The notes under the pieces are model-generated. The model saw only the letters and a list, made by a program, of their open reading frames with translations, made no database searches and was not told the origin of the DNA. A stretch of DNA of 64,000 bases from Sedimentitalea nanhaiensis DSM 24252 (GTDB lineage Bacteria > Pseudomonadota > Alphaproteobacteria > Rhodobacterales > Rhodobacteraceae): NCBI RefSeq assembly GCF_000473225.1, contig NZ_KI421509.1:3716934-3780933 (forward strand), read 5' to 3'. How positions within the stretch are numbered: the stretch's first letter is position 1; each line of letters starts with the position of its first letter. The translations under genes and the position numbers were made by a program. Of this stretch, positions 7,315-22,043 are shown one piece after another.

Positions 7315-7391
7315 GGCGGAGTAGCTCAGCTGGTTAGAGCAGCGGAATCATAATCCGCGTGTCGGGGGTTCAAGTCCCTCCTCCGCTACCA
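7315..7391 (+). tRNA. tRNA-Met (anticodon CAU, elongator type)
   Basis: The 77-nt sequence folds into a standard cloverleaf with encoded CCA: acceptor GGCGGAG with CTCCGCT (G1-U72), D arm GCTC/GAGC, anticodon stem GCGGA/TCCGC with loop ATCATAA (anticodon CAU), and T arm GGGGG/CCCTC-type pairing with TTCAAGT. It lacks the three G-C pairs typical of initiator tRNA, so it is the elongator tRNA; tRNA-Ile(CAU) is less likely. Its 3' part is duplicated at 21994-22043, marking it as an integration target. The copy here is the intact one. Confidence 0.95.
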
Positions 7392-7392
7392 A
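7343..7392 (+). repeat. attL core (direct repeat copy 1)
   Basis: These 50 bp run from inside the anticodon stem of the intact tRNA-Met to one base beyond its CCA. They are identical to 21994-22043. The flanking base differs on each side (G before and G after here; A and A at the other copy). Confidence 0.93.
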
Positions 7393-7448
7393 GGCTTTCA
7401 ATGGCTTACGTTGATTCCTATGTGATGCCGCAGGCTATTATCGCCAAT

Positions 7449-7467
7449 TGGGGGACATATGGGGGAC
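7449..7467 (+). promoter_or_regulatory. Left arm-type integrase binding sites
   Basis: TGGGGGAC occurs twice (7449-7456 and 7460-7467), 11 bp apart. The same pair with the same spacing occurs at 21812-21830 near the other end, just upstream of int. Paired direct repeats at both element ends, inside the att cores, are the expected pattern for arm sites of a lambda-type integrase. Integrase binding is inferred. Confidence 0.6.
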
Positions 7468-7703
7468 AAGAGCGCCCAGCCCGCAAGCAATTCGAACCAT
7501 TTTGGACTGCAGTGCACCACGAATCGCGGCGGTCTCGTCGCCTGCACTGACACCGCATGAACCGAGCATGTGTTGATTGCCCAAGAATCGCCCCACCTTG
7601 GCCTGAGGACTGTTTCAATCGCCTATGAAAAGGGTGCCGAACAAGCACCTGCGGGCCTGTTAATATATTTTCTGTACCCAATGGTGGGTGTTATTGTTGA
7701 TGG

Positions 7704-8357
7704 ATGATTCCACGCATACCTACCGACTTCTTCGAAAGTCTCACATTTTTTGGAGACGCTAGCAGCAAAGACAATGAGTTTATGGTCGCTGGCGGGTTCG
7801 CCGTGGCAGGGAAGCGGATAACCGAGATATCGGCAAAAATTGCGACGCTGCGGGCCGAGGCCGGAATTCAATCTGAGTTTCATTGGAGTGCGTACAGGGG
7901 CGGGCACAAGAGAAGGCCAGCTTACGAGGCGCTGGTTGACTATGGGTTTGACTTAACCCGACAAGGCAAGGCAGAACTCCACATTTTGATAGCTCAGTTT
8001 GGCGGGTACAACCACAAAGCCAACCGGGGAGAGAACCGAGACACAAGCGTAAACCGGATGTACTATCAGCTATGTCTCCATCGCCTTGCCAGATTCTATG
8101 GGAAATCGCGCCAAATTCACGTCCGATTAGACCAAGGGAACGACTCGGAAGATGTATGCAAACTGCGTGAACCCATATGCGCTGCTGCCTTCAACGATCC
8201 TGATATCGACGCAGCGCCGAACTGCGCGCACTTCGGTCTGAGGAAAAGCAGGTTTATGCTAAGGTCCGGGAATGCTTCAAAATCAGTGCGTCGGGCTATG
8301 AGCCTTCGTCCAATCAGGTCCGCAGTTTTTACGCTCTGCTGCAAGACAAGTTCCTGA
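7704..8357 (+). pseudogene. DUF3800-family gene, 3' end lost at a deletion junction
   Basis: Residues 1 to about 168 are a clear DUF3800 domain (start FFGDASSKDNEFMVAGGF, then EFHWSAYRGG, HILIAQFGGY, NRMYYQLCLHRLARFYG, HVRLDQGND). Near 8204-8219 the homology stops and the frame runs 50 more codons in meaningless sequence, while the adjacent frame picks up the C-terminal part of a RhuM-like protein. DUF3800 proteins are putative nucleases often found in defence or mobile-element cargo. The C-terminal part of the domain is therefore missing here and activity is doubtful. Start is the ATG at 7704. Confidence 0.7.
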
Positions 8358-8800
8358 ACGCAGTCACTGGACAGACCGCATCGAAGTTGGTTCTGGACCG
8401 TGCCGATCACCGGGAAGACAACATGGGTGTTCAGACGTTCTCGGGAAAAATGCCAACCATCGCCGAAGCCAAGACAGGGAAGAATTACTTGCAGAGTGAA
8501 GAGTTGTATCGCCTGCACCTGCTGTCTGAGCAATTCCTGCTATATGCGGAGGCCCGCGCCCTTGCGGGTCAAAAGATGACAATGAAGTCCCTTCACCAGC
8601 AACTCGATAGGCTGCTAACGCTGAATGATTACCCGGTCTTTGATGGATATAGGGACTTTCTCAAAGATGATGCCGAAAAGCACGCCAAACAGGAACTCAC
8701 CCTATACAAGAAGCGCAAGAAGATCGAGGCAATGGGCATTGAGTACGACGAAGAAGCGCTTGCAGCGGGAGAGTACGACGAAGTGCTGATCGAAGGTTAG
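8204..8800 (+). pseudogene. C-terminal fragment of a RhuM-family protein
   Basis: Frame 2 opens after a stop at 8201-8203. It reads ELRALRSEEKQVYAKVRECF, then SFYALLQDKFLNAVTGQTAS, DRADHREDNMGVQTFSGKMP, AKNYLQSEELYRLHLLSEQF and LNDYPVFDGYRDFL. This matches the C-terminal half of virulence RhuM proteins, as I remember them. The N-terminal RhuM domain is absent and replaced by DUF3800 sequence in another frame. An internal ATG at 8387 could still start a 137-aa product. Function of RhuM is unsettled. Confidence 0.65.
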
Positions 8801-8856
8801 TATTGCCGAAAAAGGCGGCGCTCTGTAAGGGTGGCCTTCAAACTTGGAGGCCGTTT

Positions 8857-9198
8857 TTGGACAGCACAGATGCCATAGATGATGCACTGGCAGTGGCGGC
8901 GCAACTTGGGCGTTTAGACTTCGCTTCGTTGCTTTTAGCCATAGTTAGCACTATCTTAGTCTTAGGTGGCGTATTCGCGTTCTTGAACTTTCGCTCTATA
9001 GCCAGGGCACATGCAGTAGAGCAAGCCAAGGCAATTGCGGAGGCCACAGCTGAGCGCGTCACAAACGAGTATTTGCAAAGGGAACTTCCTGATTTGCTTG
9101 AGGCATATAGGGATTTCCTCGATTCTGACGATGTGTCCGACGAGGCCGCAGACCAGATGGCAGGTGCGCAAGACGATGATGGGGAGGCCGAAAAATGA
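8857..9198 (+). CDS. Small single-pass membrane protein coupled to an ImmA/IrrE protease
   Basis: A 113-aa protein: short N-terminus, one transmembrane segment (about residues 22-42, LLLAIVSTILVLGGVFAFL), then an Ala/Glu-rich helix likely to be coiled coil (HAVEQAKAIAEATAERV) and an acidic tail. Start TTG at 8857 is preferred because GGAGG lies 6 bp upstream; an in-frame TTG at 8803 is the alternative. Its stop overlaps the next start (ATGA at 9195), so the two proteins are probably translated together and may interact. No known domain. Confidence 0.65.
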   Translation: MDSTDAIDDALAVAAQLGRLDFASLLLAIVSTILVLGGVFAFLNFRSIARAHAVEQAKAIAEATAERVTNEYLQRELPDLLEAYRDFLDSDDVSDEAADQMAGAQDDDGEAEK

Positions 9199-9686
9199 AC
9201 CTATCTGAGCAATGGGATGTGCTGACGGAAGCCCGCAACAGCATTCCTGTGCCCGTCTTGTCCCTTCCTGCGCCTCTCGGGCTAAAGTTCCGCCAAGCTT
9301 TTCTGGGGGGCGATGTATCTGGGATGCTTGAGAAGGATGGAAACACATTTCTCCTGACCGTTAATGCGCTGGACCCTTACACGCGCCAACGGTTCACAGT
9401 CTCGCACGAACTGGGGCATTTCATGCTTCACCGGCATCTTGTCGGGGATGGCATAGATGACGACAGGGCATACCGAAGCACCGAGGTTGGAAAGTACCAC
9501 AACACCCTGATTGGTCCAAAAGAAGAGACTGAGGCCAACAAGTTTGCCGCCAATCTATTGATGCCCCGCGACGCGATCAATCGCGAACGGGTGAGGCTGA
9601 AGGATGACGTGGGCGCGATGGCCAGCCTCTTCGAGGTTTCGAGGCACGCTATGTCCATTCGCATGGGTGTACCCTTCACTGGCTAG
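9195..9686 (+). CDS. ImmA/IrrE-family metallo-endopeptidase
   Basis: A 163-aa zinc protease. HELGHFMLHR (residues 71-80) supplies two His ligands and the catalytic Glu, and EANKFAANLLMP (from 113) contains the third-ligand region typical of the family. ImmA/IrrE proteases cleave repressors of mobile elements or stress regulators, releasing excision or phage genes. An ImmR-type XRE repressor is not adjacent; the nearest XRE protein in the element is at 11432. The upstream partner is a membrane protein, which is unusual for ImmA and could make the protease membrane-associated. Confidence 0.88.
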   Translation: MNLSEQWDVLTEARNSIPVPVLSLPAPLGLKFRQAFLGGDVSGMLEKDGNTFLLTVNALDPYTRQRFTVSHELGHFMLHRHLVGDGIDDDRAYRSTEVGKYHNTLIGPKEETEANKFAANLLMPRDAINRERVRLKDDVGAMASLFEVSRHAMSIRMGVPFTG

Positions 9687-9732
9687 TTAAGTATATAGGC
9701 CCCCAATTTTACCCATCGCCCGCTCAAACGAT

Positions 9733-10323
9733 TTATCTGCCTCTGTAGGGTGAAGTCGCCACCACCAGCGGCGGCGCTGCTGGAAAGCTCCTGATATCGA
9801 ACCACTTGAACCAGGTGCCATCCGGGTTGGCCTGGTCACCCATGACAAGCTGTTGACCGCCGTTTGCGTGACGTATGAGGGCCGCTCGGAACGCCCGAAG
9901 GTCGATCAACCGCCAGTGCTCTATATGCGTTTGTGAGGCGCTGACATGGCCGTAGAACATCCAGTCACCGTATCCGTTCACAATCTTGGACAGTTCCGTT
10001 TCAGCCCCTGACGGGACATGAGAGCGGATGGTGAACTGGTGCGGATAGCGCAGGGCGTAGCCGGGTCGTCTGACACGTGCGGCGATCCGCATGTCGCGGG
10101 CGTCCAGCATCAGCAGGTCTGTTGCGTGTAACTGGTCCAGCGGATCAGGGGCGGTGCTCAGAAGGTGCGAACCAATCAGCCGCTTGATGTCCGGCAGAAA
10201 CCGGTCGGACCAGCGCCGGTTAATGTCATAATGGAAGGTCATGAAATTTGCTTTTGAAATGTCGAAAACGGTGAGAAGGCCCGCAAAATGGCGAGCCTTC
10301 GGTGAGTATTGGCTTGCCGTCAA
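9733..10323 (-). CDS. Conserved phage/prophage protein of unknown function
   Basis: A 196-aa basic protein with a conserved-looking core: DINRRWSDRFLPDIKRLIG, TDLLMLDARDMRIAARVRRP, YPHQFTIRS, GYGDWMFYGH and a C-terminal DIRSFPAAPPLVV. I recognise it as a protein common in alphaproteobacterial prophages but know no function. TTG at 10323 with AGGGGG upstream is taken as start; the ATG at 10242 is the shorter alternative. It converges with the ImmA gene. Confidence 0.65.
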   Translation of the reverse strand: MTASQYSPKARHFAGLLTVFDISKANFMTFHYDINRRWSDRFLPDIKRLIGSHLLSTAPDPLDQLHATDLLMLDARDMRIAARVRRPGYALRYPHQFTIRSHVPSGAETELSKIVNGYGDWMFYGHVSASQTHIEHWRLIDLRAFRAALIRHANGGQQLVMGDQANPDGTWFKWFDIRSFPAAPPLVVATSPYRGR

Positions 10324-10396
10324 TCACCCCCTCTCTGTTTGGTGAGCTGCTCGCGCCTGTCTCGTCGTGAACGCCATGAATGCACCGGGCCAGCCG

Positions 10397-10796
10397 TCAG
10401 ACCGCCTCCGACTTCTTGTAGCGTGGCTCGATCCCGACCATCTCATATGCGCGGGCCTCCTGCCAAACTGGATGGGTATCCCAGTCGAGAACACATCCGC
10501 CGCAGACGGTGGCGACAATTATCTTCGCGCGAAGTCAGAAGCGGAAGTTGCGGCAGAGACATCATTTCATCTTCGATCCGGTCCGTTCTGACATGGAACA
10601 GACGGTCAAGCCCTTCGTCCTCGGCCTTTCCGATTGCTTTGCTCTCATGCTTTCGGGCTGCATCTGTGATGGCTTGGTGCTCACGAAACAGCCGCATTAT
10701 CGGCGTGTCGCCAGATTCGGCGGTGAGCGGAAGTGCGTTCGCCGTACCGGCAACAGCTACGGCGGGTGCGGCGGCAAGAAGGTCGCGGCGGTTCAT
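10397..10796 (-). pseudogene. Small phage protein gene with twin-Arg-like N-terminus, frameshifted
   Basis: Starts MNRRDLLAAAPAVAVAGTA (Tat/signal-like) and reads a helical segment to EDEMMSLP. After about 10555 the frame gives non-conserved sequence ending at 10443. The adjacent frame continues sensibly as AKIIVATVCGGCVLDWDTHP, VWQEARAYEMVGIEPRYKK and stops at 10397, so a frameshift lies near 10540-10560 in the CGCGCG run. The combined product would be about 132 aa. Its start overlaps the stop of the 80-aa gene before it (TAATG). Function unknown; a sequencing error is an alternative explanation. Confidence 0.5.
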
Positions 10797-11038: not shown

Positions 11039-11057
11039 GTTCTCCTAGTTTGGTTCT

Positions 11058-11327: not shown

Positions 11328-11400
11328 AAGCTTTACCCCGTATGCAATTCCGCTTACTGTGTAATCAATATCGGGCCTTTTCAACCGATAGTCAATACGC

Positions 11401-11416: not shown

Positions 11417-11431
11417 TATGAGGTTATCATA

Positions 11432-11683
11432 ATGACGCCAGAGCAGTTGAGAATGGCCCGCAACGCCCTACGCTTGGGAGTTCGTGATTTAGCAGAGTTG
11501 TCGGGCGTATCCTTCACAACCGTGAGCCGCTTTGAAACTGGCAAGGGCGGATTGCAACATACGACCGCCGAGGCGATGCGCAAAGCCCTTGAGGTCCGTG
11601 GCATTCAGTTCCTTGAGGCTGGGCAGGTGGCGTTGGGCAGTGGTGTGGCGATTGCCAAAGAGCGCGACAGTCAGGATGTATGA
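11432..11683 (+). CDS. XRE-family helix-turn-helix regulator
   Basis: An 83-aa repressor-type protein. The HTH is MTPEQLRMARNALRLGVRDL-AELSGVSFTTVSRFETGKGG (residues 1 to about 40), followed by TAEAMRKALEVRGIQFLEAG, the usual tail of short phage/plasmid XRE proteins. The ATG at 11432 is chosen over 11342 because the upstream codons have no homology and cross the operator region. The stop overlaps the next start (ATGA at 11680). It likely controls the divergent promoter pair and possibly the choice between dormancy and induction. Confidence 0.85.
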   Translation: MTPEQLRMARNALRLGVRDLAELSGVSFTTVSRFETGKGGLQHTTAEAMRKALEVRGIQFLEAGQVALGSGVAIAKERDSQDV

Positions 11684-11835
11684 GTATCGAAGCGGCGGCG
11701 GGTTACTGCGGCGTCACACCGGCCACCGTTCGGAACTGGATCAATTCGGGCGAACTGAGAGCAAAAGGAGCGGCGCGGCGCAGGACCGTCGCGCGGGCCG
11801 ATTTGGAACGAAGGAAGAAGAGAACCGACCAATGA
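11680..11835 (+). CDS. Mini helix-turn-helix protein (MerR/excisionase-like), 51 aa
   Basis: Translates as MSIEAAAGYCGVTPATVRNW then INSGELRAKGAARRRTVARA and a Lys/Arg-rich end. The pattern is an HTH (AAGYCGVTPATVRNWINSGEL) followed by a wing, as in AlpA/Xis/MerR-type minimal DNA-binding proteins. It overlaps the XRE gene (ATGA) upstream and the lipoprotein gene (ATGA at 11832) downstream. It could be a second excisionase or a co-regulator with the XRE protein. Confidence 0.65.
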   Translation: MSIEAAAGYCGVTPATVRNWINSGELRAKGAARRRTVARADLERRKKRTDQ

Positions 11836-11907: not shown

Positions 11908-12525
11908 ATGTGCGGGCGGTACATAGACCCGAACCTGCGCGGCACCGAGTTTGAACTCTCGGAAATCAAGATTGATCCATTCCCCCGCCGCTACAACATC
12001 AAGCCCACCCAGGACGCAATTGCCCTTCGATCCTTGAACAGTGACGCGGTGCTGATGCGCTGGTGGTTCATCCCTTTCTGGCACAAGGGCGAAGCAAAGG
12101 ACTGGAAGGCCACCACGTTCAATGCCCGGATCGAAGAAGCCGCGAAGAAACCGACCTTTCGCAATGCGTGGAAGTCGGGGCGATGCCTGATCCCTGCCGG
12201 TGGCTACTATGAGTGGACAGGTGAAAAGGGGCACAAGCAACCGCATGTCATCCTGTCGGCAGGCAACGAGGAAACCCTGTGGTTCGCGGGCCTGTCATCG
12301 CACTGGAACGACATCCACACGTGCGCAATCCTGACGCGCCCGGCAAATGCATGTGTCGAACAGGTCCACAATCGAATGCCGGTTATCCTGAATTCTGATG
12401 AACGGGAGGCGTGGATGGGCGGCACGGATGGCGCCGGGATCGGGGCAGACGCCATCCTAAAGCATCATCCGGTGAAGCGGTTCGGTATGCGCGACGACGG
12501 TCCGGAATTGGTCGAAGAGATGTGA
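11908..12525 (+). CDS. SOS response-associated peptidase (SRAP, HMCES/YedK family)
   Basis: A 205-aa protein that forms a thiazolidine crosslink with abasic sites in single-stranded DNA. The catalytic Cys2 (MCGRY), Asn30 (RYNIKPTQ), Asn72 (FNAR), Glu102 (GGYYEW) and His154 (QVHNRMPVIL) are all present. Length is typical. It lies one base after the tiny lipoprotein gene in the XRE operon. In a mobile element it probably protects ssDNA during replication, or supports SOS-linked induction. No LexA box was confirmed upstream. Confidence 0.93.
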   Translation: MCGRYIDPNLRGTEFELSEIKIDPFPRRYNIKPTQDAIALRSLNSDAVLMRWWFIPFWHKGEAKDWKATTFNARIEEAAKKPTFRNAWKSGRCLIPAGGYYEWTGEKGHKQPHVILSAGNEETLWFAGLSSHWNDIHTCAILTRPANACVEQVHNRMPVILNSDEREAWMGGTDGAGIGADAILKHHPVKRFGMRDDGPELVEEM

Positions 12526-13478: not shown

Positions 13479-13784
13479 CTATCCCCTCCGCCCAAACGGC
13501 AGGTAGGGCGACGAATACACGACGGATTCTGTTCCGTCCGACAGGTCCAGGTCAGGCAGAGCCTCTAATAGCGCCACAGCGGCCCTAGGATGCCGTGTGT
13601 ATACCGCCAGCCTGTCTTCCAGCATGTCACGCCCAGGATGCCGCCCGCCTGCGTGTACGGCGTATTCACCGCGCCCGACGTTGCTTTCCAACCATCGGTG
13701 CAATGCATCCATCCGCTGGCCCAACCCTTCCTCCGGCACACGCAAGAAGACGCGCACCGGGAAGGCCGCGTCATCTATTTTCAT
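13479..13784 (-). CDS. Small protein of unknown function (phage-type)
   Basis: A 101-aa protein, MKIDDAAFPVRVFLRVPEEG with DALHRWLESNVGRGEYAVHA, ending SVVYSSPYLPFGRRG. Starts upstream at 13808 or 13880 are possible but give less protein-like sequence. It converges with the membrane-protein gene. No recognised domain. The composition and the compact fold-like pattern argue for a real gene. Confidence 0.5.
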   Translation of the reverse strand: MKIDDAAFPVRVFLRVPEEGLGQRMDALHRWLESNVGRGEYAVHAGGRHPGRDMLEDRLAVYTRHPRAAVALLEALPDLDLSDGTESVVYSSPYLPFGRRG

Positions 13785-14239: not shown

Positions 14240-16060
14240 CTATCGTGCATTTGTGCCCTGAAGCTGGCGCTGCAAGAGGTGTGCCAATGCGCCTTGCTGT
14301 CCGTCGGGGGTCGGTGATGTGGCCCGTGCCGAAATCAACTGAGCCAACATTCTCTGCTCAACTTCGCTCAGACCCTTCTTTGGCAACGGCGCACTGTTTC
14401 TGATCAACTCGCCTAGGCCCTCTACCTGCCGTCTGGTGCTGCGCTCGCCCATTGCCTTGGCCGCATAGCCAACGCCCGAGGGAACCATGAACAGAGGGTT
14501 TCCCGTGGCCCCGGTTGCACCCATTGAACCCGCGAACCCGCCAAGTGGCAATGCCCCTGACGTTGGCGCAAGGCGAGACAGCAACCGCAGGGCGTTCTGC
14601 GTTGGGGTTCCGTCTGCAATCTCGCGCATGGCCTGCAACTCATCTGCGTTGTAGCCTCGGCGCAGCTTCGGGTTTTCCAGTACGCGGCGCACATTCTGGC
14701 GAATGGCGTTAATCTCGTTGCCACCCGTGCCGCTGGTCGCTGCCCTGCGCAAACCCTTTGCGACAAGGCCGGTATCTTCCGCTTCGAACAGTTGTGACTT
14801 GTGGACCCGAGACGCTTTTTCGCGGGCGTCTTTCAGGGTGTCCACAACTTCCGCCGCGCGATTGGTGCCGGTGACGTCTGCTGGCGTCAGGGCGTCAAGG
14901 TGGTCGTCAATCGTTTGCTTCATTCCCATGCCGATGGCGCGCTCGCCTTTCTCAACGGACCCGGCAACGTTTCGCCCGATCCACTGGCGGGCCTCGTCAA
15001 CGTCCGCAATCGACATCGGTGCGCTGCGCATGTCGCCTGCGAGAGCGTCCGCAGCAATCGCCGCCTTGGGGTTCAGTTTGCGCGTGGCCACACGGGGACC
15101 GAATGCGCCCTCGATTGAATTGGCAAGATCATTGGAAGACTGCGGCGACAGGGTCGCGTTTGAGGCTCTGACGGCATCGTAACCTGCATCGCTTTGCGTT
15201 TGCAGTTGTTCCAGTGTCGGGGCCTTGGGGCCGGAGCGCATACCGTGTGCTGTGGCGATTGGTACGCCACCACCGATCATGCTGCCCGCGAGGTCTGCCA
15301 AATCGCTTTCCGGCGCGATTTCACGGGCCGTCTGTCCGCCAATACCCGCACCGGTCGCAGAGGCCATACCGCCAGCAATCACCTTTGCAGGGGCCGTTGC
15401 TGTACGCGCCATCACGCCACCCGGTATTGCGGTTGCGCCGACTTCCTGTCCAATCCTGCGCCCGTAGCGCTGCGCTGTCGTCTGCGGCGCTATGTCGGAA
15501 ATGGTTGGGGCAAGCATGTCGCGGAATGTGCCGGAACCACCTACGGGATTCTCGATGGGTTGAAAGTCGGTCCCGACAAGTGCGTTGATCCCTTGCGCGC
15601 CAAGGTTCAGGGCACCCGTCGCCAGATCAACCGGCGCGCCAAGTGTGGTTGCGATGCCTTCATTCACGCCGCTCATTGACTGCTCAAGCATGTTGGTCTG
15701 CGGCGCGGATTGCTGCACCCGGCGGGCTTTTTCCCGCTTGGCCCGTTCCAGCAATGCCGCCTGCAATGACTGATCCATTGCGGGCGTCTGCTGTGCGGAC
15801 GTTGGCAGCGCCGGAGGCACCAATCCGCGATTTCGCGCTTCATCAAGCAGCGCCTTTTTGTCGGCTGGCAGTATACCGCGCTTTTCGGCTTCCAGAAGAA
15901 GGTTGATATCCATTCCGCCGGATGGGGCGTTTTTATCTCCTTGCTGTGTCGTCTGATGCGGCGCTGTGAACGACCGAAAGGCCGCAACGGCGGACTGCAT
16001 GTCCGGGGCGTCAACCTCGTAGGTCTTGCCGTCCGGCCCCTGGATTTCATAGATAGTCAT
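14240..16060 (-). CDS. Phage internal/DNA-ejection-like virion protein
   Basis: A 606-aa protein starting MTIYEIQGPDGKTYEVDAPD, an N-terminal beta-module seen in long internal or ejection proteins of podovirus-like and prophage virions, as I recall it. It continues with a long Ala/Gly-rich region containing amphipathic hydrophobic stretches (PIENPVGGSGTFRDML, ATAIPGGVMARTATAPAKVI, AGGMASATGAGIGGQ) and a helical C-terminal half. It is the last and largest gene of the leftward operon. In a complete phage it would be flanked by portal, head and tail genes; none are here. The assignment is by architecture and N-terminal motif only. Confidence 0.55.
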   Translation of the reverse strand: MTIYEIQGPDGKTYEVDAPDMQSAVAAFRSFTAPHQTTQQGDKNAPSGGMDINLLLEAEKRGILPADKKALLDEARNRGLVPPALPTSAQQTPAMDQSLQAALLERAKREKARRVQQSAPQTNMLEQSMSGVNEGIATTLGAPVDLATGALNLGAQGINALVGTDFQPIENPVGGSGTFRDMLAPTISDIAPQTTAQRYGRRIGQEVGATAIPGGVMARTATAPAKVIAGGMASATGAGIGGQTAREIAPESDLADLAGSMIGGGVPIATAHGMRSGPKAPTLEQLQTQSDAGYDAVRASNATLSPQSSNDLANSIEGAFGPRVATRKLNPKAAIAADALAGDMRSAPMSIADVDEARQWIGRNVAGSVEKGERAIGMGMKQTIDDHLDALTPADVTGTNRAAEVVDTLKDAREKASRVHKSQLFEAEDTGLVAKGLRRAATSGTGGNEINAIRQNVRRVLENPKLRRGYNADELQAMREIADGTPTQNALRLLSRLAPTSGALPLGGFAGSMGATGATGNPLFMVPSGVGYAAKAMGERSTRRQVEGLGELIRNSAPLPKKGLSEVEQRMLAQLISARATSPTPDGQQGALAHLLQRQLQGTNAR

Positions 16061-16280
16061 TTCGTTTACCTGCTCTCTTTTCCTCGATTATTCGGGATTG
16101 GAATTCTTCTTCCGTTTCGTTGCCATGCGGATAGACAACGCCGCTCAGCGTCCTTGCCAATGCCCCACATCTGATTGGTGCGGTGGGACCGGGGCGAAAC
16201 AGCACCCGAAAGACTGTGCGCGCGTCACCGACACCGGGGCGGGCCATTTCGAGTTTCTCAACGCGGGTTCGCTGTGTCAT
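16047..16280 (-). CDS. Small element protein, unknown
   Basis: A 77-aa protein (MTQRTRVEKLEMARPGVGDA ... ETEEEFQSRIIEEKRAGKR). It overlaps the virion-protein start by 14 bp and begins within the ATGA stop overlap of the previous gene (16277-16280). The packing supports a real operon member between DUF5681 and the virion protein. Function unknown; its Arg/Glu-rich helix could be structural. Confidence 0.5.
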   Translation of the reverse strand: MTQRTRVEKLEMARPGVGDARTVFRVLFRPGPTAPIRCGALARTLSGVVYPHGNETEEEFQSRIIEEKRAGKRNDYL

Positions 16281-16546
16281 TCCTCGCCTCCGATGGTAAC
16301 TTCAATACAAGGGCCATCCCATAGGCCGTGATCGCCATTCTGAGCCGCGATAGATTTGGCGCGGGCGCGAAACGCTTCCTCAGACTCGCCGTCGGCCTGC
16401 TTTGCGCTCCACCCGGAGCCAACAACGCACATGCCGGTCCGAATAGGGTTGCCCGCCTCATCTTCGTCCCGAAGGGACATAGTGATTACGACCTGATCCG
16501 AGCCGCTCACCTTTTCGAGGTCTTTCAATCTGCTCTTGATGCTCAT
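16277..16546 (-). CDS. Small element protein, unknown
   Basis: An 89-aa acidic protein starting MSIKSRLKDLEKVSGSDQVV with a coiled-coil-like N-terminus and the segment GESEEAFRARAKSIAAQNGD. Start 16546 has GGAGGC upstream. It overlaps DUF5681 upstream (ATGA 16543-16546) and the 77-aa gene downstream (ATGA). The EEAFRARAK pattern with a short beta-strand core recurs in small phage proteins beside terminase genes; this is recollection, not proof. Confidence 0.55.
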   Translation of the reverse strand: MSIKSRLKDLEKVSGSDQVVITMSLRDEDEAGNPIRTGMCVVGSGWSAKQADGESEEAFRARAKSIAAQNGDHGLWDGPCIEVTIGGEE

Positions 16547-16992
16547 TTTGCCGCCTCCAATGCTGCTATGCGGGCTTCGATTTCCGTCGTTTCGAGGGTG
16601 CGGCGGAACTGCTCCACAACCGCCATGACCGTTGCGGCTTCCAACGGGGTGACATCGCCAGCGGCAACCGCATTCAGAATGGCGCGGGCCGCGTTTGCCG
16701 CGTCCTCCGCCGTTTCGATATTGGGCATGTTGAACGACACCGGAGCGTCCTTCCGGGGCGGTGCTATCCGATCCAGACACAGGCGCAGGGCCGTCGTGTC
16801 GCCCTTGAGGGCCTTTTCAATAGCTGCATTGGTCAGCGCCTCGCTCTGGCCTTCCAGCAGCGCCTCAACGGCCCGTGTCGTCTTGTGGCGTGCACCCTTG
16901 GGCTTGCCGGGATTGCCGGTTGCATAGGTGCCGTCGGGTTTACGCCCGTCATCCGTATTCGTGCCGTTTTTACGGTCTGATTCAGTGTTCAT
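16543..16992 (-). CDS. DUF5681 protein, terminase-small-subunit-like
   Basis: A 149-aa protein. The N-terminal DUF5681 signature is visible (DGTYATGNPGKPKGARHKTT then RAVEALLEGQSEALT), followed by a helical region (ALKGDTTALRLCLDRIAPPR) and a C-terminal helix. DUF5681 proteins sit next to phage terminases and are often considered small-terminase-like. No large terminase is encoded here. It is the first gene of the leftward four-gene operon and lies 76 bp from the repeat array at 17068-17205, which may control it. Confidence 0.8.
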   Translation of the reverse strand: MNTESDRKNGTNTDDGRKPDGTYATGNPGKPKGARHKTTRAVEALLEGQSEALTNAAIEKALKGDTTALRLCLDRIAPPRKDAPVSFNMPNIETAEDAANAARAILNAVAAGDVTPLEAATVMAVVEQFRRTLETTEIEARIAALEAAK

Positions 16993-17067: not shown

Positions 17068-17205
17068 GTCACTGATTTGGTGACGGGCGAGGCTCGAAAA
17101 CTGCCTGTTTCGTCACTGATTTGGTGACGCCCTGTCCTCATTTTGGTGACGTCCCGGCTTTGCGTGTCACCAATTTGGTGACGTTACTGTCCTCATTTTG
17201 GTGAC
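17068..17205. repeat. Five 17-bp iteron-like repeats, helically phased
   Basis: Copies begin at 17068, 17112, 17134, 17166 and 17189. All share GTC-N7-TTGGTGAC. Two read GTCACTGATTTGGTGAC, two GTCCTCATTTTGGTGAC, and one is the perfect palindrome GTCACCAATTTGGTGAC. Start-to-start distances are 44, 22, 32 and 23 bp, close to 4, 2, 3 and 2 helical turns. They overlap the last codons of the winged-helix gene and run into the region before DUF5681. They fit an origin bound by the element's own initiator, or an operator for the leftward structural operon. Confidence 0.85.
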
Positions 17206-17665
17206 AGGGTTTTGAATTCTGATTGCGACCTGTCGGGTTGTGAGCGGTTGCCTTGATGACGGGATAGTCAGCACCTGCTTGCCACTCTTTGAACAGACGC
17301 CGCCCTGTGTTGGCGGTGCCGTGAGGCAGGGCGATTTCCGTTATTTCATAGCAAGGGCACGTTGCGGCTCCCGACACGCCCAGACGGGCCGGGAGAGTGA
17401 CGACCAGGAAGCCCTTTGCCTGAAGGTCCTGGAATGCTCTGGCGGCTGTGTTAATGCCCACTCCCAAGCGTTGTGCAGCCTGCCTGACGCTGAGCCGGAT
17501 TCTACCGTTGTTGTTTGACTGGGGACCGCGCCATTCGAGCTTGAGCCATGGGTAGAGAGCCTGTGCAGTGGGATTGAGCGCCCTCCAAGCGCTCGTTTCC
17601 ATGGTGGCCCTGATCATCTTTGTGAAATGTTCAGCTCGGTCTTCGTTCCTCTTGTCGCGCCCCAC
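17138..17665 (-). CDS. Winged-helix protein, candidate replication initiator
   Basis: A 175-aa protein. Its core (AWRALNPTAQALYPWLKLEW, IRLSVRQAAQRLGVGINTAA, RAFQDLQAKGFLVVTL) is a winged helix like the DNA-binding domain of phage replication proteins of the lambda-O kind. The C-terminal codons are themselves the repeats (peptide CHQNEDSNVTKLVTRKAG), so gene and binding array are fused, as in lambda O/ori. GTG start overlaps the TOPRIM stop (TAGTG at 17665). A transcription factor role is the alternative. Confidence 0.65.
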   Translation of the reverse strand: MGRDKRNEDRAEHFTKMIRATMETSAWRALNPTAQALYPWLKLEWRGPQSNNNGRIRLSVRQAAQRLGVGINTAARAFQDLQAKGFLVVTLPARLGVSGAATCPCYEITEIALPHGTANTGRRLFKEWQAGADYPVIKATAHNPTGRNQNSKPCHQNEDSNVTKLVTRKAGTSPK

Positions 17666-18654
17666 TAGTTACCCTCCCCATACTCAGGGGCAGGCAACAG
17701 GCCGCTAATCAGCATGCGGTCGGTTTCTTCTGCGCTGGGATCTTCGGCATACTGTTTCCAGTCGATACGACGCTCGATTGCCAGCTTGAGAATGTCCGCA
17801 ATCGCGTCAGGGGGCAGCGCCTCTAGCTGGCATGTACCTCCCGTCCAGTTCTTGGAGCGGCTGTCACTTGCCTTGGCAGGGGCCGTGGGCAGGTCGAACG
17901 ATTGAACCTGATCCCCGATAAGGGCAACACGCTCAAACTCGACACCCACCAGACCATGCGGCCTGTCTGACATCACGAAGGTTTCGACGTCCTCCGCAAC
18001 CGCGTCGAAGATGGAAACACCGCTGGGGTCGAAGTCGCCAAGGTGCAAGATGATCGCCCGCTTTTCGATTGCGCAAATACGATCCGCCAACCGTTTCTTA
18101 GCTGTCAAACTGTCGAAGCCACCAGACGAAAAGACTGGCACTGAAAACGGCTCGGCAACTCGGTAAAGCTGGGGCAACATGCCTGCCGCCTCGCACCAGA
18201 CCTCAAGATGAATGTCTTGCGCCGCCAGCTTGTTGCGGGTGTATCCCTCGCCAAGTTCGCGGACATGACGCAGAAAGTCGTCCTGGTCGTCAAAGTGATC
18301 CATCGTCCATGTGGTCACGCCATCGTCGCGGATCGCATCGAAAGGGATGACCTTGCCCCGGCGAGCATTGGCGAGGTGATGACAGAGCCGCCCATAGGCG
18401 GACTCCGTCTTGTCGTATCCATGCGCCCCAACCATGCGATAGAAGATTTGGCGGCAAGTCAGGGGCCAGAAACGGCGGTATTCTTCCAGTACCGCCTGTG
18501 CCTGATCCAGCAGGGCGCGGGTCTTGGCGTTCGGCTTGTATCTGTCGATATAGCCCCTGTTGCGCTTATTACGGCTTGCCTGAATTTTGGCGTCCACAAC
18601 CCCAGGTACAGCCATCGCCAGCACCCTGTTGATATCCTCGGTCGTCAGGTTCAT
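17665..18654 (-). CDS. TOPRIM protein related to Spo11/TopoVI subunit A
   Basis: A 329-aa protein. The N-terminal winged-helix motif PLTCRQIFYRMVGAHGY carries Tyr72 at the place of the DNA-cleaving tyrosine of TopoVI-A/Spo11. The TOPRIM domain has EVWCEAAGML (Glu155 in the position of the metal-binding Glu) and HLGDFDPSGVSI (Asp207, Asp209). No TopoVI-B-like ATPase is encoded nearby. Placed between the HNH gene (ATGA overlap 18651) and the winged-helix gene. It probably acts in replication or DNA nicking for the element; I cannot tell whether it cuts DNA. Confidence 0.8.
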   Translation of the reverse strand: MNLTTEDINRVLAMAVPGVVDAKIQASRNKRNRGYIDRYKPNAKTRALLDQAQAVLEEYRRFWPLTCRQIFYRMVGAHGYDKTESAYGRLCHHLANARRGKVIPFDAIRDDGVTTWTMDHFDDQDDFLRHVRELGEGYTRNKLAAQDIHLEVWCEAAGMLPQLYRVAEPFSVPVFSSGGFDSLTAKKRLADRICAIEKRAIILHLGDFDPSGVSIFDAVAEDVETFVMSDRPHGLVGVEFERVALIGDQVQSFDLPTAPAKASDSRSKNWTGGTCQLEALPPDAIADILKLAIERRIDWKQYAEDPSAEETDRMLISGLLPAPEYGEGN

Positions 18655-18896
18655 GCCGAAGCCTCCCGCGAATGCAGGGCCTTGTGATGCTTCCGACAGA
18701 GCCAGATCACATCATAGGGACGCTCATAGTTGGGATGGTGGGCCTCTGACTTTTCCGGGTTACACACCTCGCACGGCTTGCGATCAATCACACCAAGATT
18801 GAGCGCGTTCTGCACCGCAAGGTGAGCGAGGTATGATTTCGGGTTGCGCTTGCGCCACCGCTGTTGCCGGGAGAGGGATTTGCGCTTCGTCGTCAT
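18651..18896 (-). CDS. Small HNH-like zinc-finger protein
   Basis: An 81-aa basic protein. CEVC (Cys42, Cys45), EAHHPNYERPYDVIWLCRKH (His53-54, Cys67, His70) and a following His71 make an HNH/zinc fold common in small phage proteins. The longer frame to 19187 is noise; the ATG at 18896 overlaps the previous stop (TAATG). Could be a nicking endonuclease supporting packaging or replication. Confidence 0.8.
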   Translation of the reverse strand: MTTKRKSLSRQQRWRKRNPKSYLAHLAVQNALNLGVIDRKPCEVCNPEKSEAHHPNYERPYDVIWLCRKHHKALHSREASA

Positions 18897-19000
18897 TACG
18901 CCGCCTCCCCGTAGTGCAGGGCCGCAATCAAATGTGCTGCGGCTTCGGACAGGCCATGACGGCGGCGAAGGCGGGCTATCTGGATAACGCGGGGTTTCAT
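18896..19000 (-). CDS. 34-aa helical protein, probable
   Basis: The frame reads MKPRVIQIARLRRRHGLSEA then AAHLIAALHYGEAA. Start overlaps the stop of the HTH gene (ATGA 18997-19000) and its stop overlaps the HNH start (TAATG), so it fills the operon exactly. Helix-turn-helix-like RRHGLSEAAAHLIAAL pattern. Very short but the double overlap supports translation. Confidence 0.55.
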   Translation of the reverse strand: MKPRVIQIARLRRRHGLSEAAAHLIAALHYGEAA

Positions 19001-19353
19001 GCGGCACCCCCGATCCGGGCAACGCCCTCGCCAATGAAGTAGACGCCGAACTTGGCGCGGTCCGTTGCCGCGTCGTTTTCATACATCTCGATAGTGATCG
19101 GCACGCCGTATTCACGGCGCAGGACACAGACCCGATCAGAAACCCGCACCGGGGAGGCGCAGTAGATGGGCTGCCGCAAGAGGGCATCGAGAATGACGCG
19201 GTTGCCCTTCGCCAGCGTGAATTCTCGGCTATCGCCGTTGCTGCCCGTAACCCGGTAGAGGGCGGGCGTCCGGTCGGTGGGGAGGTCTTTCCAGCCGGTC
19301 ACGCGCAGGACGTTTGCCGGTGGGTGTTTCGTGTCTTGGTTGGTACTGCTCAT
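18997..19353 (-). CDS. Helix-turn-helix domain protein of the element's early operon
   Basis: A 118-aa protein. After a polar start (MSSTNQDTKHPPANVLRVTG) comes KGNRVILDALLRQPIYCASP with VRVSDRVCVLRREYGVPITI, which reads as a winged-helix domain like those used in phage proteins to bind DNA. Start 19353 replaces the longer frame from 19392. Overlaps the 34-aa gene by ATGA. Likely regulatory or replicative. Confidence 0.65.
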   Translation of the reverse strand: MSSTNQDTKHPPANVLRVTGWKDLPTDRTPALYRVTGSNGDSREFTLAKGNRVILDALLRQPIYCASPVRVSDRVCVLRREYGVPITIEMYENDAATDRAKFGVYFIGEGVARIGGAA

Positions 19354-19465
19354 GTTCCGCAAATCCTTTTCTGGTTGAAAGGCTGCGGGCAAATCGCTAA
19401 TCTGTTTTCACCGCTGAAAAAGAAAATAGCCTCTGCCCGTATACCTTCTGCGGGTGGGGGTTTTC

Positions 19466-19651
19466 TTATGCGGCTGCGAATTTCACACCGGCTGCGTCGA
19501 GGAAGGCGTCCAAGTCGTCCTTCTCGATGCGAGTGGCAGCGCCGAATTTGGTGAAGATCAACTCGCCCCGCTTGTGGGCCTCGTAAAGGACGCTGCGGCT
19601 GTGACCGCTGTAATCTACGGCTTCGCTGATCTTGAAAAAGCGTTTCGTCAT
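19466..19651 (-). CDS. AlpA-like excisionase / HTH_17 DNA-binding protein
   Basis: A 61-aa protein, KISEAVDYSGHSRSVLYEAH with KRGELIFTKFGAATRIEKDD and LDAFLDAA. This is the full MerR-like HTH_17/excisionase pattern: HTH, wing with a T-R-I strand, then a D-DLDAFL helix. Such proteins bend att DNA for excision or activate integrase transcription (AlpA). It lies between the integrase operon and the early operon. Confidence 0.85.
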   Translation of the reverse strand: MTKRFFKISEAVDYSGHSRSVLYEAHKRGELIFTKFGAATRIEKDDLDAFLDAAGVKFAAA

Positions 19652-19738
19652 GGAACCTCCGAGACGTTCCGCTCAGAGGGCCATTCCCTCTAATCCGTGC
19701 GGACGTGAGAGGTAGGGTATGGATGCCAGCGACGTAAT

Positions 19739-20587
19739 CTAGCTTATGGACAACCCTGTAATTCCGCCCATGGGGCCTATTTTTGGGTGGTCCAAATCTT
19801 CATCCGTGATCATCGACTTAGCTGCTTCCGCCGGGCCTGATAAAGATATGTCACCCCACCCCAAGCTGTCGAAAACATCTCGCAGCGCAGGGGTATATTC
19901 ACCTGAGACCCCGTTGGGGTCTTCTGAGTATGTTGGGCGCTTTCCCGTAACTTTCGCGTATAGCCTAGCGAGTTCAAGAGCCACAGCATACGCCGCGTAG
20001 TTTCGTGGCCTCCCAACGCCGGTTCTTCTGATTTCCAGTTCTCTCAAAGCGTCTTTCTGAGCAGTTTCGGATTGAGATTTTAAGCTCGAACAGGCTATGA
20101 ACGCTGAGTATAAATAGCCAATTTCTCTAACAATTCTTTCCTCAACCGGGAGATTAGTTTTCCTAGAAAATTCAAAGGGGCCGTAGTTCAACGTGGCCCG
20201 TTCTAGATGTGACAATTTGTTTAGACTGTTCATCAAAGCGTCAGCCGCAGCGGTGACCTTAGCGAATCGTTCGACTTTGTTTTCGAATTCTCGTTTGCTT
20301 TCGGTCTTTGACGCGGACGTGACTTTCTCGACTTGATCGCTGCCGAACAAATCCTTGGGGAGATATCCGACGGTCTTCCCATCTCTTACAATCGGGACGT
20401 CGCTGCCTTCCGTTACTGTCTCGCCTATCCAGTCGCTAACAGCGGAATAAATTACCCGCTTGGCATCAAATATTGCCTGTTCTTTTTTGATAATTGCGGC
20501 GACGTCTCTATCCACATCACCTTTGGACCCGGAGCCGCACAACGCTTTCACAACGGGAGAAGGTTCATCGGTTTTCCGTTTGGACAT
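19739..20587 (-). CDS. Unknown protein translationally coupled to the integrase
   Basis: A 282-aa soluble protein. Start ATG at 20587 overlaps the integrase stop (TAATG), so it belongs to the integrase transcript. It shows a short N-terminal helix, a central Lys/Glu-rich stretch (KTESKREFENKVERFAKVTA), and a C-terminal region with VGRPRNYAAYAVALELARLY and TYSEDPNGVSGEYTPALRDV. The latter resembles the C-terminal block of uncharacterised proteins found beside Rhodobacterales integrases. Lower GC than the flanks. Function unknown; a cargo or exclusion protein is possible. Confidence 0.65.
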   Translation of the reverse strand: MSKRKTDEPSPVVKALCGSGSKGDVDRDVAAIIKKEQAIFDAKRVIYSAVSDWIGETVTEGSDVPIVRDGKTVGYLPKDLFGSDQVEKVTSASKTESKREFENKVERFAKVTAAADALMNSLNKLSHLERATLNYGPFEFSRKTNLPVEERIVREIGYLYSAFIACSSLKSQSETAQKDALRELEIRRTGVGRPRNYAAYAVALELARLYAKVTGKRPTYSEDPNGVSGEYTPALRDVFDSLGWGDISLSGPAEAAKSMITDEDLDHPKIGPMGGITGLSIS

Positions 20588-21807
20588 TATTCGCCACCCA
20601 TTGTTATGATGGTACACGGCTTCTGGGTTACGACTTCGCTCCATCGATCAAGCGCAGCCGCTCGCTGCGGTAGCATCTCCGACTGATTGTAAACCCGCGC
20701 TACTGCGCTCGGAGCCGATCCGCTGGCGGAGTGATTGAGAATACGATCCACGACGCTCTCAGACTCGCCCGCCTCAGCCATTGCGGTAGCGAAGCCAGTC
20801 CGAATGTCATGCAGTCGCCAATGTTGGAAATCATCAGGCAGCAGACCATCCAACCTGGCTTTGGCCTTGCCGATGCCAGAAACCGGCGTTGTCCCTGTTG
20901 TGGTGAACACCAGTTCTAATTCTGTGCGCCCTGCATCAAGTTTCCTCAGTTCCTCAAATGCTGGCTGCGAAAGGTGGGTGGTATGCGGCTTGCCATTCTT
21001 TGTGCGCGATCCAGGTTTCACGATACGCCTGCTTTCCAGGTCAACTTCATCCCAACGCAGACCGAGAATTTCGCCCCTTCGCTGACAGGTAAGGATCAAC
21101 AAACGGAACATAGGCCCCCAAACCTCACCGGCTTCAAAGGTGGCTTTCCAGATTTGCCTTACTTCGCGAACACTCAGGACGCGCTCTCGGGCTTTTTCCT
21201 TTATGGCTTTTGCCACTCCGGCCCCGACATCTTCGGGGATGTAGCCCCTAATCCATGCCCACTTGGTGAATGCAGCCAGCGCCGCTCTAATTCTGTTCGC
21301 ATAGGCTTTACGTCCCGACGCCGCCTTATCGTCCACTGCTTTCTGAATATCCTTGCGGGAAAGCTCCAATACGGATCTGTCCAAATGAACTGCCAGCGAT
21401 TGCTCTAGCTGCCTCAAACGCTCGTCGCGCGTTCTCAGGTTGGAAAGGTGAAGCCTGTCATAGACTTCGAAAACCTCCCGAACCGTCAAGATGTTGTCTC
21501 GAAGGTGCTTGCTTGCGCGTAGTTCAGCCTCAGCAAGCGCTATTCGGTCTACGCCTCGCCCTGCTTCTGCTTCAATCTCAAGCGCCCTGGCACGGGCCTC
21601 CGATAGGCTGACAGGTCGCGGCCAAGCGCCAAGAGTATGTTTCCGCTTCGGTCCACCCTTCACCCGCTTTTCGTACATCCAAACCGCCTTACCGCTGGCA
21701 GACAGGCGAAACCGAAGCCCCCGCCGCTCCGTGTCCGAGACTTCCAGTCGTCCTGCCTCAGGTGGCGTCAAGCTTCTTAGAAATCGGTCTGTCAGTTTGA
21801 TCTTCAT
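20587..21807 (-). CDS. int: Tyrosine site-specific integrase
   Basis: A 406-aa recombinase that integrates and excises the element at tRNA-Met. It has an N-terminal arm-binding domain of the DUF4102 type (LTDRFLRSLTPPEAGRLEVS), a core-binding SAM-like domain (about 105-195) and a catalytic domain with Arg243 (TCQRRGEILGLRW), His333/Arg336 (LHDIRTGFAT), His359 (LNHSA) and nucleophile Tyr373 (ARVYNQSEM). All catalytic residues are present. The start at 21807 precedes MKIKLTD; 21876 would run through the arm sites. It sits beside attR. Confidence 0.95.
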   Translation of the reverse strand: MKIKLTDRFLRSLTPPEAGRLEVSDTERRGLRFRLSASGKAVWMYEKRVKGGPKRKHTLGAWPRPVSLSEARARALEIEAEAGRGVDRIALAEAELRASKHLRDNILTVREVFEVYDRLHLSNLRTRDERLRQLEQSLAVHLDRSVLELSRKDIQKAVDDKAASGRKAYANRIRAALAAFTKWAWIRGYIPEDVGAGVAKAIKEKARERVLSVREVRQIWKATFEAGEVWGPMFRLLILTCQRRGEILGLRWDEVDLESRRIVKPGSRTKNGKPHTTHLSQPAFEELRKLDAGRTELELVFTTTGTTPVSGIGKAKARLDGLLPDDFQHWRLHDIRTGFATAMAEAGESESVVDRILNHSASGSAPSAVARVYNQSEMLPQRAAALDRWSEVVTQKPCTIITMGGE

Positions 21808-21811
21808 GTTC

Positions 21812-21830
21812 TGGGGGACTTGTGGGGGAC
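21812..21830 (+). promoter_or_regulatory. Right arm-type integrase binding sites
   Basis: TGGGGGAC at 21812-21819 and 21823-21830, the same 11-bp spacing as at the left end, immediately upstream of int. Integrase binding here could also repress int transcription. Confidence 0.6.
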
Positions 21831-21993
21831 AAAATTGTCTGGATTTTGGTGGACGTTCATGGACAACGGTAGACAATATTTATCAGGGGAGCAAGGGAAT
21901 TTGCGCTTTAATACACAGCATTAACGGCATGATGGTGGATGCCTGCGGACGATATCGGATGCTCATGGAAGTCAACGGCAATCGAGAAGTTAA

Positions 21994-22043
21994 CGGAATC
22001 ATAATCCGCGTGTCGGGGGTTCAAGTCCCTCCTCCGCTACCAA
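21994..22043 (+). repeat. attR core (direct repeat copy 2, tRNA-Met 3' half)
   Basis: 50 bp identical to 7343-7392. Only the 3' half of the tRNA is present, so this copy is not a functional tRNA. It is followed by a 14-bp palindrome (CCAAAAATTTTTGG, 22040-22053) that may act as a terminator. Bases 22054-22260 show nothing else recognisable. Confidence 0.93.

Follow-up and report, generated by a model that had tools for sequence, protein, structure and literature searches.

In the present study we propose that a 14.65-kb element inserted in a tRNA-Met gene of Sedimentitalea nanhaiensis DSM 24252 is probably a PICI-like phage satellite of an alphaproteobacterium. The proposal draws on the direct repeats of the element, a gene set that recurs in other genomes, the homologies of its proteins and the lack of any listed capsid, portal or large-terminase family. 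Within the 64,000-nucleotide stretch of DNA analysed (the window), ARAGORN located the tRNA-Met (CAT) used as integration site at 7315..7391 on the plus strand. Two exact direct repeats of 50 identical bases on this strand, attL (7343..7392) and attR (21994..22043), are spaced by 14,651 bases, and the attL copy is the 3' part of the tRNA, in agreement with the repeats and site given in the original prediction. An integrase with direct repeats at a fixed site, an AlpA/excisionase-type regulator (recognised by HTH_17 and phrog_66 matches) and the absence of a complete virion gene set, which characterise a PICI-like satellite, were all found.

The genes from the integrase through the 606-aa gene described below are encoded on the minus strand with reading frames open all the way. 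The tyrosine integrase (20587..21807; PF00589 1.7e-15, PF13356, phrog_1 1.9e-54) lies ~120-190 bp from attR and starts at the ATG at 21807, a TTG upstream at 21876 being possible. Next to it is a 282-aa protein (19739..20587; scanned as 284 aa) with no assigned function and no Pfam or PHROG match; its gene starts at the ATG at 20587, with a second ATG at 20644, and by eye a gene of ~200-290 aa occupies the same place in many relatives. There follow an excisionase/AlpA-type HTH_17 protein (19466..19651; PF12728 1.8e-7, phrog_66 2.2e-5), a 118-aa protein, g21 (18997..19353), conserved by alignment and by a cluster present in 14 loci, and an HNH endonuclease-like protein (18651..18896; phrog_2340 2.3e-18). 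The family matches thus bear out the integrase and excisionase first proposed from the letters. As for the predicted replication genes, the 329-aa topoisomerase-like protein (17665..18654; phrog_6247 5.2e-37) is clear, and the 175-aa replication initiator-like protein (17138..17665) shows weak matches (E 0.016-0.044) to DnaD-like/O-like initiators. The former has relatives of 77% identity in G047/L034 and L023, and the latter one of 63% in L034; more remote topoisomerase relatives (<60%) turn up in 68 records of complete phages, which we count against a satellite. Iteron-like repeats (GTCACCAAATCAGTGAC and variants; 17068..17205, minus strand) adjoin the initiator gene and are likely to be the replication origin.

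Towards attL, the plus strand encodes an Xre-type repressor (11432..11683; PF13560, PF01381), a small HTH_17 protein of 51 aa (11680..11835; PF12728 3.5e-10), an SRAP (SOS response associated peptidase) protein (11908..12525; PF02586 7.6e-48) and an ImmA/IrrE-type metalloprotease (9195..9686; PF06114 6.3e-16), and the minus strand a conserved cargo protein, g05 (9733..10242), whose cluster occurs in 6 loci and which several relatives carry close to their far end. The 51-aa protein also has weak matches (E 0.003-0.07) to small-terminase and tail-assembly families, which seem to reflect general HTH resemblance. Gene calls were made with a simple custom script rather than a published gene finder, and protein clusters were built by single linkage, so that labels may be wrong; we do not believe the 101-aa ORF at 13479, clustered in this way with SRAP, to be such a protein. 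The two broken genes of the original prediction correspond to two probably truncated plus-strand genes at the left end, namely a 217-aa ORF (7704..8357; phrog_3732 5.5e-4, a weak match to the profile start only) and the C-terminal part of a broken RhuM gene (8423..8800; PF13310 profile positions 154-249 of 252). Capsid, portal, large terminase, tail and lysis families, said beforehand to be missing, were indeed absent from the 20 window proteins submitted to single Pfam and PHROG scans, the name of phrog_21712 aside. Of four further ORFs, at 8857, 9733, 11058 and 13479, the first was covered by a PHROG scan of non-core proteins and all by the weaker 16-protein screen described below.

Such units are not confined to this genome. 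Of 390 genomes of the host's order, 31 (its own included) had a match in a search for the DUF5681 subfamily, which gave 38 match rows (G266:C27, which contains a stop, was left out). We analysed 36 loci, several of which share one genome: the window, L034, L040 and 33 of 35 fetched loci (no DUF5681 gene was called in L111 or L116). An integrase lies upstream of DUF5681 in 25 of them, a replication gene in 22, and an RLxxLE protein downstream in 25. Repeats delimit fifteen related elements, 14 of them at a tRNA; in most, an integrase is followed in turn by an excisionase, a replication gene, DUF5681 and small coiled proteins. Several repeats have just 14-18 bases, yet they coincide with tRNA 3' ends; the least certain element is L113 (G254b), whose repeat lies ~250 bases from the tRNA. 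A unit like the one of 13-16 kb that had been anticipated does recur, with no capsid, portal or large-terminase family listed and in sizes spread more widely, from 4.6 to 27.9 kb (median 14.65 kb); the G140 element, whose gene list may contain a duplicate, measures 27,879 and not 28,379, since the ranges of L093 and L124, on which it was measured, overlap by 500 bases. The smallest relative, framed by tRNA-Leu repeats 4,642 bp apart, has only an integrase, a 201-aa gene, an excisionase, DUF5681 and small ORFs. Near the second site, a search down to 12 bases found no repeat of the own tRNA-Leu end. Restriction-modification, Fic and Mads-type genes are present among 76 element proteins. Other observations count against a satellite: 11 of the 36 loci are without an integrase of the cluster, the bounded element G254a is without DUF5681, and endolysin-type families matched single, unassigned proteins of batch A9. 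The other integrase-bearing loci tested for bounds gave no convincing repeat.

Large terminase, portal and true capsid were all absent among the PHROG families listed for 112 non-core proteins of the bounded elements (of the 113 that reach 90 aa, all but the ImmA protein), these families being the best 25 of 43 (batch A8), 25 of 26 (A9), 25 of 27 (A11) and 15 of 15 (A12), where A11 and A12 together are A8 minus the 606-aa protein, so that all but three families are covered. A structural screen compared 16 structural proteins with 1578 target proteins, comprising 329 of bounded elements and, in part overlapping with these, 1249 from all loci, of which three phage loci contribute 130 and host flanks many. 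This screen, which alone covers the loci without bounds and in which only the podovirus references had a positive control, is weak because nothing was recognised in L015, L023 and L024, though PHROGs found capsid and terminase in L023/L024. In these two incomplete viral contigs the same topoisomerase-like gene precedes a terminase-capsid block with large terminase, capsid and protease genes and, by eye, HNH; L023 also has a head-closure match and L024 a portal match, and no tail gene was recognised in either. No terminal repeat of the kind expected for a circular viral contig was present in 13 loci, of which 10 are informative because L019, L026 and L047 are pieces of longer contigs.

The DUF5681 protein (16543..16992, minus strand; PF18932 7.6e-8, 33.3 bits against a Pfam cut-off of 27.5) belongs to an alignment of 36 sequences. 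It had been put forward as small-terminase-like; the family match stands, and the likeness to a terminase comes from gene position only. Ordinary DUF5681 genes stand before a terminase-sized ORF in 6 of 9 opened loci, with no terminase after them in the other 3, and all three such ORFs tested are large terminases. Homology to the podovirus small terminase was rejected, as there is no similarity to that of the podovirus whose ejection protein is closest. The AlphaFold2 model is helical (mean pLDDT 71) and matched no small terminase of the PDB, its best Foldseek hit (E 0.27) being a ribosomal protein. These two negative results and the 3 loci with no terminase after DUF5681 count against a satellite. 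Directly after DUF5681 comes a small coiled protein of RLxxLE type (16277..16546, minus strand), a motif shared by 49 of the 84 small proteins at this place versus 4 of 451 elsewhere, and then a second small protein called at 16047..16280 on the same strand.

The single ejection-like virion protein of the original prediction was confirmed as a 606-aa homologue (14240..16060, minus strand; phrog_21712 2.8e-93) of the last podovirus ejection/internal-virion protein, with 46.6% identity over 461-472 aa to gp20 of Octadecabacter DB virus 2 and gp18 of Sulfitobacter phage NYA-2014a. Its homologue is the final gene of the podovirus ejection block. The name of phrog_21712, 'major head protein', looks misleading because in NYA-2014a the homologue SUFP_018 is the last gene, behind the hydrolase, and because another 'major head protein', SUFP_028, adjoins the scaffold gene; from this gene order in the phages we rejected a capsid gene. 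Ejection-type proteins occur in 10 of the 36 DUF5681 loci, being an accessory and not a constant part. L034 and L088 encode two (467-471 and 860-891 aa), in the podovirus order of gp20 and gp21 of Paracoccus phage KLEP18-1 and within the DUF5681 operon, apart from cargo. These proteins may be remotely related: phrog_5880 matched 4 of 51 and 1 of 38 element proteins in two PHROG batches (proteins not individually named), and no BLAST similarity was detected between L088 and L083 or between the window and L034. A fold search with the 606-aa model (mean pLDDT 53) gave no informative match (best E 0.36). We tentatively suggest, as a possibility with well under even chances, a satellite group widespread in alphaproteobacteria that would re-equip the helper particle with its own DNA-injection proteins, and would not resize or make a capsid; the proteins supplied would be podovirus ejection proteins in the genome elements and possibly, in L033 and L176, tape-measure/tail or head-tail connector proteins. 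It is rather unlikely that the 606-aa protein of a satellite is instead a decoy which interferes with the helper or a competing phage, at assembly or at DNA entry, and is no working part of the particle. Published systems do block phage assembly or tails (in the excerpts consulted of PMC10884400 and PMC11364771) and some elements carry defence-type cargo; however, the paired ejection genes of L034 and L088 keep podovirus order, and the ejection genes stand in the DUF5681 operon and not among cargo.

Rather than a satellite, the element might be an integrative genomic island moved by conjugation, natural transformation or general transduction, with DUF5681 as a DNA-binding gene that has no packaging role. 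DUF5681 relatives are indeed found on plasmids: 5 records, each typed as non-mobilizable, include Waddlia pWc (15.6 kb) and, at 22.6-35.7 kb, plasmids of Methylobacterium/Methylorubrum. The packaging role is a predicted one, and the sole PF17289 terminase of the genome lies, by eye, in a gene transfer agent-like cluster. A search without positive control found no relative of one podovirus portal in the genome; like the position of that terminase, this yields no resident helper and counts against a satellite. However, no relaxase or conjugation family was detected by Pfam and PHROGs in the 20 scanned window proteins, and podovirus ejection-type proteins, present in 10 of the 36 loci, would be needless for an ordinary island, which we regard as improbable. 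About as improbable is a worn prophage, that is, a podovirus stripped of head, tail and lysis genes with one virion gene left: it would account for the two probably truncated left-end genes and for a relative of the 606-aa protein, matching from residue 1, in what by eye appears to be a podovirus prophage of Microvirga, but the core genes have open reading frames, among the families listed for the other 14 bounded elements there is no capsid, portal or large terminase either, the smallest relative makes do with its few genes, and the ejection gene of phages comes after the hydrolase and not after DUF5681. Among the scanned proteins of the element there is one of virion type only, and the phage searches made turned up no complete phage with its backbone; such a phage would have spoken against the original prediction. 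The satellite interpretation fits better, and the earlier preference for it over a prophage is supported by the recurrence of the unit with no capsid family listed.

Gram-negative PICIs possess a fixed att site, an integrase, an AlpA-type excisionase, a replication block and a small-terminase-like gene, and no capsid genes. The window element is alike in att site, integrase, excisionase-type gene and the lack of listed capsid genes, and has a putative replication block and a gene that is small-terminase-like by position; it differs in its alphaproteobacterial host, in the iteron-like repeats at the end of the initiator gene and in the ejection-type proteins of 10 of the 36 loci, and here the putative small terminase is DUF5681, which is not known to be related to PICI TerS. 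The cf-PICIs carry their own packaging block, which the terminase-capsid block of the incomplete contigs L023/L024 resembles, whereas no terminase, capsid, protease or portal of its own was found among the proteins of the window element scanned and screened. VEIMEs and tycheposons are integrative satellite-type elements of marine bacteria. The size of the element is of similar order to that of PICIs, which average 9.5 kb according to the part of PMC10803314 available to us, where satellites are also described as carrying defence genes. The same part presents the PICMIs of Vibrionaceae as satellites of minimal content (int, alpA and a replication function, along with anti-phage genes), which have no identifiable packaging genes and are not believed to alter the particle; the window element differs by DUF5681 and the ejection-type protein. 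With P4-like satellites, described in a portion of PMC8628076 as having an integrase, alpA, a replication gene and a defence hotspot, it has this outline in common, whereas no psu, sid or delta family appeared among window proteins in general Pfam/PHROG scans (not P4 profiles). VEIMEs and tycheposons are named in an extract of PMC10187409. Charybdis elements, without the terminase and portal genes of known satellites in the section consulted of PMC12324425, were rejected as kin since nothing links them to the window element. The podoviruses NYA-2014a and Octadecabacter DB virus 2 share the ejection-type protein; unlike the element, they possess portal, capsid and terminase genes, in records of 39-42 kb. 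Among the matches listed from open-licence PMC literature, no paper dealt with DUF5681 satellites or satellites of the host's order.

Thus, we propose that the element resides in the tRNA-Met gene, presumably silenced by the Xre repressor, and would be excised by its own integrase together with the HTH_17 excisionase, with replication probably starting from the iterons at the end of the initiator gene. The DUF5681 protein, as probable small terminase, would steer the packaging motor of a helper podovirus onto satellite DNA, and the 606-aa ejection-type protein would probably enter the helper virion and serve in DNA delivery.

Such an element would add alphaproteobacteria to the hosts of PICI-type satellites, with a DUF5681-subfamily gene behind a replication gene as a simple marker and roseophage-like podoviruses as the candidate helper type. 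It would also offer a function for DUF5681, a family of unknown function, and would raise the supply of injection proteins as a new way in which satellites exploit their helpers. If this is true, satellite DNA could enter cells that the injection proteins of the helper do not serve, or bypass resident superinfection exclusion.

The element measures 14,651 bp and lies between exact 50-bp repeats at 7343-7392 and 21994-22043, in keeping with the original prediction; the left copy forms the 3' portion of the tRNA-Met at 7315-7391, which is intact. The G+C content per kb is 0.51-0.62 inside it versus 0.56-0.70 in the rest of the window. The integrase adjoins the right repeat on the minus strand, followed leftwards by a ~282-aa protein, an HTH_17 excisionase-type protein, a conserved 118-aa protein, an HNH protein, a topoisomerase-like protein, a 175-aa initiator-like protein, the DUF5681 protein, two small proteins and the 606-aa protein (14240-16060, minus strand). 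The left half holds an Xre repressor, a small HTH_17 gene, SRAP and an ImmA/IrrE protease, besides several genes that are broken or have no assigned function. Two cargo genes are broken, as had been anticipated, a feature that would also fit a worn prophage. The unit is delimited on both sides, its core genes are open, and it recurs elsewhere. About 1.64 kb of its cargo, covering two uncharacterised genes and part of SRAP, is duplicated at 97-99% identity in the same genome (C4:3819569-3821207; L004 19563-20000 and L005 1-1223), near a tRNA-Leu(CAG) and a 616-aa ORF, Fic-like by eye; this copy may be what is left of a second element, given that three relatives are integrated at a tRNA-Leu(CAG).

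Fifteen related elements are bounded by repeats, at spacings of 4.6, 7.1, 7.8, 9.4, 10.1, 10.5, 12.2, 14.65, 14.8, 15.3, 15.8, 16.5, 16.8, 22.6 and 27.9 kb (the last corrected for a 500-base overlap). The expectation of a conserved unit in other genomes held for its recurrence, and the range of sizes is wider than the 13-16 kb proposed. Fourteen of the fifteen occupy a tRNA site (Leu 4, Met 3, Ser 2, Thr 2, Phe, Asn and Lys 1 each), and the tRNA-Met repeat of genome G140 equals the 50 bases of the window except for the first. The smallest comprises an integrase, a 201-aa gene, an excisionase, DUF5681 and small ORFs; another (G254a, L041) is without DUF5681 and carries other genes common to the group. 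Another four genomes of the genus were compared: in three, tRNA-Met lies together with hemE and no element gene occurs within the 20 kb read, and the fourth gives no tRNA match there; the right flank of the window was not found at these sites, which therefore fall short of a clean empty site.

A query built from the alignment of four DUF5681 proteins matched, at 1e-12 or better, in 31 of 390 genomes of the order, the source genome included. We fetched 35 neighbourhoods, called and clustered their genes, and based the counts on the 36 loci in which DUF5681 was called. In 25 of these, an integrase belonging to a single cluster lies upstream; the 11 loci devoid of such an integrase may be remnants or different. 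Excisionases of three clusters occur in 19, an undercount as that of the window falls outside them, and a replication gene (AAA_25, DUF3987, Prim-Pol, topoisomerase-like or 175-aa type) in 22. An RLxxLE protein follows DUF5681 within 1.5 kb in 25 loci; as a control, RLxxLE near the N-terminus is present in 49 of the 84 small proteins encoded right behind DUF5681 versus 4 of 451 elsewhere.

PHROG scans covered 127 proteins: the bounded elements contributed 112 of their 113 non-core proteins with a length of 90 aa or more, and another 15 were selected with virion-type genes in view. Among the matches listed, which take in all families but three, there is no family of large terminase, portal or genuine capsid, which bears out the predicted lack of these genes for the non-core proteins of the bounded elements. 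One scanned set (A9, including L033, L176 and L181) matched endolysin (two matches), neck, tail-terminator, tail-tube and tape-measure families, at the level of the whole set rather than of its members. By our assignment, which follows gene order and PHROG families, genes after DUF5681 in the viral record L176 look like head-tail connectors, and the unverified metagenome record L033 has genes that look like tape-measure and tail-tube types. Sixteen structural proteins compared with 1578 predicted proteins matched in phage loci only; this weaker screen has a short reach, because it found nothing in L015, L023 and L024, and the odds of the satellite reading are carried by the PHROG scans and the bounded elements instead. 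PADLOC analysis of 76 proteins gave type I and II restriction-modification, Fic and Mads-type proteins among the best 25 of 189 families.

The viral contigs L023 and L024 (IMG/VR) encode topoisomerase-like proteins 77% and 69% identical to that of the window and, beyond them, large terminase, capsid and protease genes, with head closure matched in L023, portal in L024 and an HNH-like ORF in both by eye. No tail gene was recognised, L023 extending 2.6 kb past the portal-sized ORF at which L024 stops. They are candidate capsid-forming satellites; since both contigs are incomplete, they may also be fragments of ordinary phages.

The DUF5681 protein of the window scores above the Pfam cut-off, and a PF18932 search gave 26 matches in 15 of 61 genomes. 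Of nine loci opened, drawn from the stronger matches, six have a terminase-sized ORF after DUF5681 and three do not; all three such ORFs tested are large terminases by Pfam (one phrog_38, 1.3e-104). The position before the large terminase is the usual one of the small terminase, and it is this positional argument that points to such a role; a fold search with the predicted structure gave it no support. Six modules of DUF5681 and a terminase-sized ORF (L163, L164, L165, L166, L168, L169) stand mostly behind a ParB/methylase-like ORF, with recombinase- or transposase-like ORFs nearby and no further phage gene evident by eye within ~5 kb. The particle proteins of a Salmonella phage are reported to include a DUF5681 protein, with two peptides (PMC8954984).

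Against the satellite reading we count that DUF5681 relatives are also plasmid-borne, the gene therefore residing also on replicons that may move otherwise, and that the topoisomerase-like protein has distant relatives in 68 phage records and 56 plasmid records. On the 15.6-kb chlamydial plasmid pWc of Waddlia chondrophila (L156), possibly a plasmid-borne relative of the satellites, DUF5681 and small genes come after a primase; the plasmid also encodes two integrases as well as ParA. Methylorubrum pCMU02 (L158, 22.6 kb), which also bears two flagellin genes, and a Methylobacterium sp. WL1 plasmid (L157, 35.7 kb) have DUF5681, a small-gene string, ParA and an integrase.

The 3' end of the initiator gene and the stretch right behind it contain GTCACCAAATCAGTGAC repeats, in two exact copies and a near-palindrome; with up to 3 mismatches allowed, the rest of the window has none. 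The 4 matches (palindrome counted twice) compare with 0.14 expected, the pattern coming from the same sequence and one match arising by construction. A further two copies, more divergent, can be seen. Five such repeats occupy the same place in L034, which likewise sits at tRNA-Met; G605 and G503 have short repeats of other kinds at this point, and L085 shows no clear ones. The arrangement suggests an initiator that carries its own iterons, as the O gene of phage lambda does.

Relatives of the 606-aa protein were found in 5 of 50,697 phage records, two being the same phage: Octadecabacter DB virus 2 gp20 (46.6% over 472 residues), Sulfitobacter phage NYA-2014a gp18 (46.6% over 461 residues) and, weakly, EBPR podovirus 2 gp29 and one Vibrio phage. 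In DB virus 2, NYA-2014a and EBPR podovirus 2 the homologue closes the internal-virion block, following the cell-wall hydrolase. The PHROG name of the family, 'major head protein' (phrog_21712), is likely a mislabel of ejection-type proteins matching one NYA-2014a annotation; a different gene so named sits in the head block of that phage. Four of 394 genomes of the bacterial family match, the source genome included and the other three weakly. A relative in Microvirga alba, aligned from residue 1, lies within a gene cluster judged podovirus-like by eye. A clustered ejection-type protein occurs in 9 of the 36 loci and L083 is a tenth, its 879-aa protein (phrog_5880), after a neck/tail-type block, having relatives in Rhizobium phage RHph_I3_18 and Microcystis phage Mwe-JY13. 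In four loci (L034, L088, L093, L106) the ejection-type proteins come as a pair, one of 408-475 aa and one of 860-897 aa. Those of L034 have their relatives in gp20 and gp21 of Paracoccus podophage KLEP18-1 (31% and 32%), structural proteins encoded one after the other; the group therefore includes two or more families of podovirus late virion genes.

Searches of the source genome revealed no helper, which would therefore come from outside; it is probably a podovirus related to NYA-2014a. Around a PF17289 terminase, that genome has a cluster (C4:43166-56948; L187/L188) whose gene order and size resemble those of a gene transfer agent. A decoy role is possible for the ejection-type protein. In the satellite mechanism that we propose, Xre would repress the element until release by the ImmA/IrrE protease, integrase and excisionase would excise it, replication would proceed from the iterons, and the motor of the helper would package it via DUF5681, with the 606-aa protein entering the helper's particle.
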